From positions 1-39,980 of the forward strand of contig LBUD01000015.1 in assembly GCA_000992395.1 (NCBI GenBank): a DNA stretch of 39,980 nt. Direction: 5' to 3'. The stretch is from Parcubacteria group bacterium GW2011_GWA2_38_13 (GTDB lineage: Bacteria; Patescibacteriota; Patescibacteriia; Buchananbacterales; GWA2-38-13). A program made the translations under genes and the position numbers. The notes below the pieces were generated by a model. That model saw nothing but the letters and a program-made list of their open reading frames with translations. It was not told the DNA's origin and ran no database searches. Below are positions 36,490 to 39,980 of this stretch, piece by piece (within the stretch, counting starts at the first letter, position 1; each line of letters begins with the position of its first letter).

Positions 36490-36499
36490 TTAAATTTCA

Positions 36500-38014
36500 T
36501 TACTTATTCAATGCCGCGCGTGTCGCCGGGCCCACATATCCCAATTGCGAAATGCCATGCGCTTTCTGAAACTTCTTTACTCCCGCAAATGTTAAGACTC
36601 CAAATTTTCCCGTAATAGGGCCGCTATAAACACTTTCTTGCGTCAAACGATTTTGAAGTTCCTTTACATCATCTCCCGTTGCTCCAATATTTAAAAATCT
36701 TGAAAAAACAAAAGTTTTCACACCCAAAACAACTCCTGGATCAGTTGAATCTTTGTCCGGCTCTATTGATCCGACCATAATGGTAAATGCAGGAATGTCA
36801 AGGCGATTACTAGCCACACCGTTTGAATCCGTAACAATTATGGAACAATTATTGTGCAAACCGCGGCTTAATGCATTAAATTGTATACTATTTTTTCCAA
36901 CCAAAGCAACCATTGTCGGGCTTGCGCAGTCCCCGAAATATTTTATTGATCCGGCTTGTGTGGCGCTAAATTCATACACCGGGCTCGTGCTGAAAACTTC
37001 ATACGGAATCGGCGTCACCTGCGCTATTGCAGGGCCTAAAGCAAAAATAATTTTTTGAATATCGTTTCCGGAAAATGCCGGGCTGATATTGCCTTGAGCG
37101 TCAGCTATAACAACATCCGTGATTTGTAAAGGCGCGCTTCGGCTTATATGCCCCGAAGCAACCGTATAGATAGCCGTGTAATTGTAACCACGATCAATAG
37201 TGGTCCAGTTGAGCGATACGCCATTGTATGATCCGAAAATTCGCAAATTCGGATCCGGAGTTTTTGGCATTAAGCGGAATCGTATTGTTTCACCCATTTT
37301 TAATATTCCGGACGAGGTCGCGTCTGATGTTAATGAAAAAATTTCCGGAACCGTGCTATTGAAATTTAACGTTGCCCGAACAGGAGATGCTCTAGCTCCC
37401 GATATATCTTCCATGTTTATAATAAATGGCACAAGGCCCGCAGTATCGCTATCCGTATAGGTATATGTTGCCACATATGGCCCGATACCGCTTCCGGAAA
37501 CGCTCACGGTGTGGCCGGAAATTACAATTGTTGGAGTTTTTATTGACTCGCTCGTGATAAATGTAAGCGTAAGGGTGTCGTTCTTTTTTGCAATGCCCGC
37601 ACCAAAACTATTGGAATTTGTAGAAAATATCAGGGATGTAATGGTTGGAGCCTGGCCGTCAATTACATTGATATATGTTCCTACAAACGGCGTATTATCG
37701 CGCTCACTCACGGTACCGGCGCCCAAAGTAAATCCACCCGCGGTAATGGGAGAAAAACCCGCGCCATCAAAAGTAAGTGTTATATATCTCGTTCCGCTTC
37801 CGCTTAATCCGGTGATAGATCTTCCGCTTAATGCTCCGGTGAAACCCGTGTAATCGGAGATTTTTGTATACACCGCTTCTGAAAATTCTATAGATACCTC
37901 GCTTTGCGAAGTGATTTTCGCGCTCACAACTATCGGAGCGCTTGCGGCAACGTTTGAAACCGCGCCAAAAAATATTATTACGCCAACAATCACTACTCGC
38001 ATTGTTTTTTTCAT
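36500..38014 (-). CDS. Secreted Ig-like-repeat surface protein with C-terminal peptidoglycan-binding domain
   Basis: Signal peptide; 'GATGDDVKELQNRLTQESVYSGPITGKFGVLTFAGVKKFQKAHGISQLGYVGPATRAALNK' PG_binding_1-like. Confidence 0.88.
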   Translation of the reverse strand: MKKTMRVVIVGVIIFFGAVSNVAASAPIVVSAKITSQSEVSIEFSEAVYTKISDYTGFTGALSGRSITGLSGSGTRYITLTFDGAGFSPITAGGFTLGAGTVSERDNTPFVGTYINVIDGQAPTITSLIFSTNSNSFGAGIAKKNDTLTLTFITSESIKTPTIVISGHTVSVSGSGIGPYVATYTYTDSDTAGLVPFIINMEDISGARASPVRATLNFNSTVPEIFSLTSDATSSGILKMGETIRFRLMPKTPDPNLRIFGSYNGVSLNWTTIDRGYNYTAIYTVASGHISRSAPLQITDVVIADAQGNISPAFSGNDIQKIIFALGPAIAQVTPIPYEVFSTSPVYEFSATQAGSIKYFGDCASPTMVALVGKNSIQFNALSRGLHNNCSIIVTDSNGVASNRLDIPAFTIMVGSIEPDKDSTDPGVVLGVKTFVFSRFLNIGATGDDVKELQNRLTQESVYSGPITGKFGVLTFAGVKKFQKAHGISQLGYVGPATRAALNK

Positions 38015-38051
38015 ATTTTTATACTATATAATAATTGATTAAAAGTTTTTG

Positions 38052-38139
38052 ATTGTCATCCCCTCGACGATTCGAGGGAATCCAAAAATAAATCATTACA
38101 ACAATTTTCTAGATTCCGCATCATGCGCGGAATGACAAT
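38052..38139. repeat. 88-bp double-hairpin MITE/REP-pair-like element with ATTGTCAT/ATGACAAT ends
   Basis: CCCTCGA-cgat-TCGAGGG and ATTCCGC-atcatgc-GCGGAAT inside terminal inverted repeats. Confidence 0.8.
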
Positions 38140-38156
38140 TATTATTATTCTACCAT

Positions 38157-38188
38157 AAAAAAAGAGCCCCATGCAAAGCACGGGGCTC
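38157..38188 (-). terminator. Intrinsic terminator
   Basis: Minus strand gagccccgtgctttgcatggggctcttttttt. Confidence 0.92.
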
Positions 38189-38319
38189 AATAGCCAACTG
38201 GAAAAGGTCTCAGGTTAGATTTTTTTTCTTCTTATACTTTCCTCCTTAAATATGTTTATGGCCTGATTAAAAGATCGAACGAAGAAAGGGGTTTGAAAAA
38301 TTGATTTCCAGTCCCCCGA
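38157..38319 (-). ncRNA. Candidate ~163-nt RNA with own promoter and terminator
   Basis: Minus-strand promoter TTGAAA-N17-TATAAA; terminator GAGCCCCGTGCTTTGCATGGGGCTCTTTTTTT; 5'/3' complementarity ACTGGAAA/TTTCCAGT. Confidence 0.6.
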
Positions 38320-38416
38320 ATGCTTATTTATAGCATATCTAAATATTTTTTTCAATACTTCAATAATAAATTTTTGCTAAGTTTTAACCAAAAATATAGA
38401 TATATAATTCATTTTA

Positions 38417-38445
38417 TTGATAAATAAATACAATTATGATAAAAT
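38417..38445 (+). promoter_or_regulatory. Sigma70-like promoter TTGATA-N17-TAAAAT
   Basis: ttgata-aataaatacaattatga-taaaat. Confidence 0.75.
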
Positions 38446-38451
38446 CATTTC

Positions 38452-38648
38452 AGATCGCATACCCACCGAATGGAGCGCAAAGCTCTTCCACCCACGCGGT
38501 CTCTTCCCCTTAAAGGAGGACACAAGTCCTGGGAAGCAATGTTTCACAGAGCGCCGGCGTTTACAGTACGCCAATTACCCAAACAAGCGTCTCTGATGGA
38601 GCGAATCTTGCCATGAGCAGAAGCACCTTTAGCCTCTGCTCTTTTTTT
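38452..38648 (+). ncRNA. Candidate ~197-nt transcript: structured RNA and/or small-protein mRNA (48-codon ORF 38470-38616)
   Basis: Promoter plus terminator; hairpin CTTCCC..AGGAC-ACAA-GTCCT-GGGAAG; ORF MERKALPPTRSLPLKGGHKSWEAMFHRAPAFTVRQLPKQASLMERILP ends at the terminator. Confidence 0.65.
38615..38648 (+). terminator. Intrinsic terminator
   Basis: gagcagaagc-accttta-gcctctgctc followed by ttttttt. Confidence 0.93.
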
Positions 38649-38656
38649 ATTGGTAA

Positions 38657-39980
38657 TTAAGAATTTTTTAAGTATTTTCTCCCTTTTAATTTATCAGGAA
38701 AATATTGTTGGTCTTCCTTCCATTCATAATCCGGAGAATATTTATAATCTTTGCCGTACCCAACTTCTTTCATAAGTTTTGTCGGAGCATTTCGCAAATG
38801 CAAAGGCACGGGCTCATCCATGGTTTCTTTCACGTCCTGTTTCACCTGCCCGTACGCCTGATACACCTCTACGGATTTTTTGGATTTTGCCAAATACGCC
38901 ACGCACTGCGCCAAAACAACGTCGCACTCCGGCATGCCCATAAAATGGCACGCATGGTAGCACGCAACGGCCTCCACAAGCGCCGTTGGATTGGCTAAGC
39001 CGATATCTTCCACTGCCATTCTTATCAAGCGCCGTGCTACATAAAGCGGGTCTTCTCCGGACTCCAGCATCCTTCCAAGCCAATAGAGCGCGGCATCGGC
39101 ATTGCCTCCGCGAACGCTTTTATGAAGCGCGGAAATAATATTATAATGCTCCTCCCCTTGCCTATCATACAGATGGGTTTTTTGCAAAGCTTCTTTAATT
39201 TTAGATTTTTCAATAATAATTCTTTGTTCCCCCTCTCCTGTCCCTCGGTTTGCGCTCAGGACATCCTCTCCCTGCCTACCGGCAGGCAGGCCACCTAGGG
39301 GCGAGGAAACTTTTCTCTTCTCCCCCTCACCCCGCCCTCTTTCCCTTGGGGAGAGAATCTCCTTTTGGGAGGACTTTTTCTTTATATCATTCTCCCTCCC
39401 CCCTTTGTGGGGGAGGGCTGGGGAGAGGGGTGTGGATTTCACCGCGAACTCCAAGGCATTAAGCGCGGTTCTGGCGTCGCCATTTGAAAATTCTGACAAA
39501 TACAAAATAGCTTCATCATCCATTTTAATTTTAATATTTCCCAAACCCTTTTCTTTATTTTCTAACGCTTGCCGTAATATTTTTTCAATACTATGGATGG
39601 AAAGCTGTTCCAAAACAAAAACACGGCTGCGCGAAAGCAGAGCTGAATTTATTTCAAAAGAAGGATTTTCGGTTGTCGCGCCAATCAAAGTGACAACGCC
39701 TTTTTCCACGTGCGGCAAAAGCCCGTCTTGTTGCGCTTTGTTCCAGCGATGGATTTCATCAATAAATAAAATCGTGCGCTTGTTATACGACTTGCGCCTA
39801 TTTTCCGCCTGCTCAATAACTTCGCGGAATTCTTTCACGCCCGAAGATACGGCGGAAAATTGCACGAATGTGGATTTGGTCATTTTTGCAATCACCCACG
39901 CAAGCGTGGTTTTGCCCGATCCCGGCGGGCCCCAAAAAATCATTGACGGGATGTCATCCTTTTCAATTGCCTGGCGTAAT
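38657..39980 (-). CDS. rarA: Replication-associated recombination protein A (RarA/MgsA) AAA+ ATPase, 5' end beyond window
   Basis: 'MIFWGPPGSGKTTLAWVIAK' Walker A, 'ILFIDEIHRWNKAQQDGLLPHVEKG' Walker B, 'GATTENPSFEINSALLSRSRVF'; frame is open to the window end. Confidence 0.95.
   Translation of the reverse strand, partial: LRQAIEKDDIPSMIFWGPPGSGKTTLAWVIAKMTKSTFVQFSAVSSGVKEFREVIEQAENRRKSYNKRTILFIDEIHRWNKAQQDGLLPHVEKGVVTLIGATTENPSFEINSALLSRSRVFVLEQLSIHSIEKILRQALENKEKGLGNIKIKMDDEAILYLSEFSNGDARTALNALEFAVKSTPLSPALPHKGGRENDIKKKSSQKEILSPRERGRGEGEKRKVSSPLGGLPAGRQGEDVLSANRGTGEGEQRIIIEKSKIKEALQKTHLYDRQGEEHYNIISALHKSVRGGNADAALYWLGRMLESGEDPLYVARRLIRMAVEDIGLANPTALVEAVACYHACHFMGMPECDVVLAQCVAYLAKSKKSVEVYQAYGQVKQDVKETMDEPVPLHLRNAPTKLMKEVGYGKDYKYSPDYEWKEDQQYFPDKLKGRKYLKNS
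39226..39433. repeat. GC-rich in-frame repeat insertion inside rarA
   Basis: Encodes 'PLSPALPHKGGRE...ILSPRERGRGEGEKRKVSSPLGGLPAGRQGEDVLSANRGTGEGEQ'; hairpins 39394-39417 and 39271-39290. Confidence 0.88.

Follow-up and report, generated by a model that had tools for sequence, protein, structure and literature searches.

Between a NUDIX gene and the DNA-repair gene rarA, a contig of the uncultured Parcubacteria group bacterium GW2011_GWA2_38_13 (LBUD01000015.1, positions 1 to 39,980 of the forward strand, hereafter the window) carries a compact plus-strand unit that could well be a stand-alone orphan gene whose product, a small folded RNA of about 197 nt, is not translated, a reading to which we give a probability of about 0.5. 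On the plus strand, a promoter (38417-38445) precedes a putative transcript region that is rich in G+C (38452-38648) and ends in a strong terminator (38615-38648). The reading builds on a promoter match, a terminator, a fold, a G+C excess and an absent coding signal, all of them seen in the sequence or computed from it, and would have the unit transcribed and its product untranslated. An earlier note had described the locus as a compact plus-strand unit holding a structured RNA of no recognized class and a short ORF; this description is supported except for the peptide.

The promoter is of the sigma70 type, with TTGATA at 38417-38422 and TAAAAT at 38440-38445 separated by a 17-nt spacer, and has the TG of an extended -10 element. 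Judging from the position of the -10 hexamer, transcription would start at about 38452. The earlier note had called this promoter strong, and the elements are indeed present, but as a consensus match alone it is not significant, as three promoter-like sites were observed in 1.1 kb and 3.6 were expected, which puts a single match at chance level and weakens the RNA gene reading. The intrinsic terminator, previously reported with nine of ten base pairs, consists of the stem GAGCAGAAGC/GCCTCTGCTC at 38615-38641 with the loop ACCTTTA, followed by seven T. With -13.4 kcal/mol plus T tract it lies far above chance, shuffles of 1.1 kb containing 0.007 equally strong ones on average, and this favours an RNA gene; terminators of such strength number 18 in 477 kb of sampled genome strands. 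The unit has its own promoter and intrinsic terminator, as expected of a stand-alone sRNA gene, by consensus and energy only. Alternatively, the unit could be non-functional intergenic DNA that arrived with the segment between rarA and the NUDIX gene (36490-38656), its structure being a relic or a moderate product of chance and the terminator alone being functional. We consider this somewhat unlikely; the chance-level promoter speaks for it, but since no other plus-strand gene precedes the terminator there would be nothing else to terminate.

For the full unit the predicted folding energy is -64 kcal/mol and the z-score -4.05; not one of 200 shuffles was as good, while the reverse strand reached a z-score of -2.38. 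Without the terminator the z-score is -2.98 on the plus strand versus -0.63 on the minus strand, indicating that about a quarter of the z-score comes from the terminator and that the remainder is strand-specific. A fold that surpasses all shuffles and is stronger on the putatively transcribed strand argues for an RNA gene, and a full-length z-score of -4 argues against non-functional DNA, though the first 120 nt of the unit alone, at about -1, would suit the latter.

In the predicted ensemble three helical domains precede the terminator. Domain 1 (38452-38502) is closed by helix P1 (AGATCGC/GCGGTCT, probability about 0.99) around the hairpin GGAGC-GCAAA-GCTCTTCC, with ATACCCACC unpaired on one side and CACCCAC on the other. 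Domain 2 (38503-38536) is a hairpin bearing a Shine-Dalgarno (SD) sequence, in which CTTCCC (38503-38508), the bulge CTTAAAGG, AGGAC-ACAA-GTCCT (38517-38530) and GGGAAG (38531-38536) follow each other; its inner stem has a pairing probability of about 0.94 and the outer CTTCCC/GGGAAG stem of only about 0.31, the remaining helices of the unit having at least 0.94. Domain 3 (38541-38602) is a long hairpin of GTTTCACAGAGCGC and GCGTCTCTGATGGAGC (at least 0.99) that encloses the helix GGCGT-ACGCC (38556-38572) and the unpaired AATTACCCAAACAA. The hairpin of domain 2 and the GGCGT-ACGCC helix had been noticed before and lie where they had been placed. Among the internal single-stranded stretches, the three that are best exposed (ATACCCACC, CACCCAC and AATTACCCAAACAA) have the 5-mer ACCCA in common, with one copy each within 38459-38467, 38489-38495 and 38573-38586; these copies, spanning 38460-38581, may serve for pairing or binding. 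In 12 of 1000 shuffles (1.2%) some 5-mer occurred unpaired at least three times, a figure to be read with the fact that the ACCCA pattern was spotted post hoc. The repeat favours an RNA gene and is reminiscent of the three sites of the Listeria sRNA LhrC; its post hoc discovery detracts from this argument.

How unusual is such a unit in this genome? The background sample comprised the window and ten further stretches (about 198 kb), 238 kb altogether, so that genome-wide rates are estimates from this sample. The unit has a G+C content of 52%, compared to 38% for the window and a mean of 31% for the sampled intergenic regions. The genome has few intergenic regions that reach 120 nt (57 in the 238 kb), and by its richest 120 nt the unit ranks third among them. 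Most of the comparable regions are interspersed repeats, including the two ranked higher and some ranked lower, or tRNA genes, of which there are several. G+C-rich intergenic DNA has served as a signal in published screens for structured RNAs (GC-IGR approach; PMC8632094), and 52% G+C in a 31% background resembles structured RNA genes, which favours the RNA gene reading and is at odds with non-functional DNA. Terminator and G+C excess are both unlikely to be due to chance. Moreover, promoter-to-terminator units with little ORF content are rare, the sample containing four: the candidate RNA, a unit that is also unexplained, and two identified genes, one for tRNA-Pro and one for a small membrane protein; this rarity, together with the missing coding signal, likewise argues for an RNA gene. 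On the plus strand of contig 9 of the source genome (L139:2206-2413 in G000), a promoter-to-terminator unit of about 180 nt with little coding content contains a 21-codon frame, MPGNTERKILDFSLVFRENLS, and has no match in Rfam.

Could the unit instead encode a small protein? A strong SD sequence (AAAGGAGG) in the hairpin of domain 2 might control a 25-codon ORF starting at 38539 or a 48-codon ORF starting at 38470, and the hairpin might perhaps serve as a structured spacer between AAAGGAGG and the 25-codon ORF. As previously described, the 48-codon ORF (38470-38616), within which the 25-codon ORF lies, runs from an ATG at 38470 to a TGA at 38614-38616 that overlaps the terminator stem, and the internal ATG at 38539 follows AAAGGAGG at a distance of 19 nt. 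The position of AAAGGAGG upstream of the ORF and of the stop codon at the terminator would fit a gene, as would a short ORF behind a AAAGGAGG site near rarA in a related genome (L006). However, the spacing of 19 nt is unfavourable, the SD core (G38518-G38519) has a predicted probability of being unpaired of at most 0.01, and the T and G of the start codon are predicted to be paired. Codon scores, derived from 167 genes of the genome, place the 25-codon frame among the 2.3% of real genes that score worst, similar to out-of-frame DNA, and the 48-codon frame in their 5% tail. Furthermore, all three plus-strand frames are open across much of the unit, and at least 48 open codons occur in 66% of shuffles. 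The 48-residue and 25-residue peptides match nothing in Pfam and PHROGs, and tblastn, which the earlier note had proposed as a check, yielded no credible relative in 286 class-level genomes; peptide matches in two genomes (G143 and G077, E about 0.007) lie in unrelated sequence and were judged to be chance. Of an alternative plus-strand frame, RRTQVLGSNVSQSAGVYSTPITQTSVSDGANLAMSRSTFSLCSFFIGN, the part from CTG 38529 is coding-like (top 0.3% versus out-of-frame gene DNA), but when the unit itself was shuffled, 14% of the shuffles reached the score of the frame; this best-scoring frame, open from 38514, has no ATG, GTG or TTG near the SD sequence, has no homologue and continues through the terminator, and was rejected. 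A small-protein gene is thus improbable, the peptide proposed in the earlier note is not borne out by codon scores, frame lengths, homology or predicted pairing, and the 48-codon ORF is best treated as incidental and not as a gene.

Nor did the unit match a known RNA class in the collections searched. None of 4227 Rfam families reached its gathering cut-off in the window, and the unit itself gave only noise up to E = 10, the best match being sbrA (E 1.2, 15.5 bits with 45 needed), in agreement with the earlier note, which had recognized no known class. ARAGORN found no tRNA or tmRNA and no tRNA-like domain in the unit. The unit shares with 6S RNA (RF00013) a similar length and a stand-alone organization, and since 6S RNA was detected neither in the source genome nor in 20 relatives in a search that was positive for several control genomes, a diverged 6S-type housekeeping RNA could be hiding here. 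This is very improbable, because the one-sequence prediction shows separate domains and a terminator with unpaired 5′ and 3′ ends in place of a rod with a central bubble, Rfam gave no 6S match up to E = 10, and the unit is absent from relatives. Type I toxin mRNAs are likewise short structured transcripts with an SD sequence in a hairpin, a tiny ORF and a strong terminator; however, the peptide of the unit, MFHRAPAFTVRQLPKQASLMERILP, has no hydrophobic stretch, and the divergent neighbouring unit, the one examined as a possible antisense RNA, does not overlap the candidate unit. The duplex of the unit with the RNA of this neighbour is predicted at -57 kcal/mol versus a shuffle average of -62, no better than shuffles, and on the peptide and this neighbour a type I toxin was rejected. 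A further close parallel is provided by the LhrC/RsaE-type sRNAs of Listeria and Staphylococcus, which are also small intergenic units with their own terminator and repeated C-rich single-stranded sites. LhrC uses three redundant C-rich single-stranded sites with the motif UCCC to bind an initiation region (PMC4132741). The unpaired motif of the present unit is ACCCA and not UCCC, its UCCC (in 38503-38508) takes part, with incomplete pairing, in the SD hairpin, no similarity is detected by Rfam, and the host lies outside the Firmicutes.

The unit is convergent to rarA, which occupies 38657-39943 on the minus strand and ends 9 bases beyond the T tract of the unit. This layout is compatible with a cis-antisense RNA that pairs with the 3′ UTR of rarA and affects the stability of the rarA mRNA. 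The terminator hairpin has its T run on the plus strand only and the 3′ flank of rarA has no minus-strand T tract here, so that transcripts of rarA may continue into the candidate unit. We regard such a role as quite improbable, as the layout is not kept beside the other rarA genes searched and a strand-specific fold would not be required for it. The interval of about 2.2 kb between rarA and the NUDIX gene (36490-38656) contains a PG_binding_1 protein, a second small unit and the candidate RNA unit. In the only other genome of the same family the NUDIX gene lies close behind rarA with no candidate unit there, and in view of this bare junction the segment looks lineage-specific; absence from the syntenic place would also be expected of non-functional DNA.

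The surroundings hold several further features. The minus-strand context noted earlier applies to the genes, but a second compact unit (38355-38157) lies on the minus strand divergently to the candidate RNA unit. Its promoter is TTGAAA-N17-TATAAA (38355-38327 region); an AAGGAGG site precedes the six-codon frame ATA-AGA-AGA-AAA-AAA-ATC-TAA, the terminator is perfect with 11 pairs (38188-38164), and the fold z-score is -2.05. At the DNA level, 192 class-level genomes contained a single weak outside match, judged to be chance. Between this unit and the PG_binding gene, at 38057-38145, are REP-like inverted repeats (ccctcgacgattcgaggg; attccgcatcatgcgcggaat). The neighbouring minus-strand gene (36500-38014) encodes a 504-residue protein whose sole recognizable part is a C-terminal PG_binding_1 domain of about 70 residues, to which the matches of its relatives are confined. 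RarA itself has about 65 residues (roughly 173-238) that are absent from its relatives, tblastn matches being split at about 172 and 240. Since the corresponding DNA (39230-39430) is rich in G+C and includes repeats similar to CTGCCTACCGGCAGGCAGG that are also found in intergenic DNA of the genome (L134 and L140), an interspersed repeat seems to have been inserted in frame into this conserved ATPase gene.

Searches for relatives returned the unit's own copy only, both at the DNA level (55 relatives and, by rank, 12 order-level, 381 class-level and 380 phylum-level genomes) and with a single-sequence covariance model (144 class-level genomes and 50 loci). Short DNA matches of 17-29 nt in six genomes (G001, G003, G141, G189, G229 and G341) were judged to be chance; that in G141 covers the terminator end only and the others, examined in context, lie in unrelated sequence with no promoter-terminator unit. 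With laxer filters the covariance model gave two weak matches in 35 relatives, also judged to be chance, including one in G026 (18.7 bits, with an E-value per genome of 0.0145 in this set of 35) that overlaps predicted ORFs, is not part of a promoter-terminator unit and is mostly missing the third domain. No match was found in phage, plasmid and viral contig collections. A search of the genome contigs with the RarA protein identified 80 rarA loci, the best at about 57% identity, and when the unit was compared with these loci by local blastn no counterpart emerged. That the genomes searched yielded no homologue, and so neither covariation nor conservation to draw on, weakens the RNA gene reading and would suit non-functional DNA. 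According to the earlier note, lack of conservation of structure or peptide would refute the unit; no homologue was found, but a young RNA gene is not refuted by this, because the lineage is thinly sampled with one other genome of the family.

How could such an RNA act? The promoter and intrinsic terminator would yield a structured RNA of about 197 nt, convergent to rarA, in which three helical domains would hold apart three single-stranded loops rich in C (ACCCA). By pairing of these loops with G-rich parts of mRNAs, its targets, the RNA would be a trans-acting base-pairing regulator. This is the likeliest mode of action, though a weakly supported and rather doubtful one. When 194 initiation regions were tested as targets, they scored slightly better than shuffles but weaker than internal coding sequence, which does not favour the RNA gene reading; targeting of SD sequences by the ACCCA loops is not supported. 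More speculatively still, the unit might represent a lineage-specific class of structured regulatory RNAs, with three domains and three ACCCA loops, in an under-sampled family of Patescibacteria. In a limited literature search, no description of a small RNA regulator from the Patescibacteria group came up.

Taken as it stands, the unit is accurately observed and unusual for its genome, and constitutes a modest lead whose function is a guess. Until a relative or a transcript appears, its practical value would lie in querying metatranscriptomes. Should transcription be found, the unit would illustrate cleanly how a structured RNA gene can stand alone in a small genome of the Patescibacteria type.
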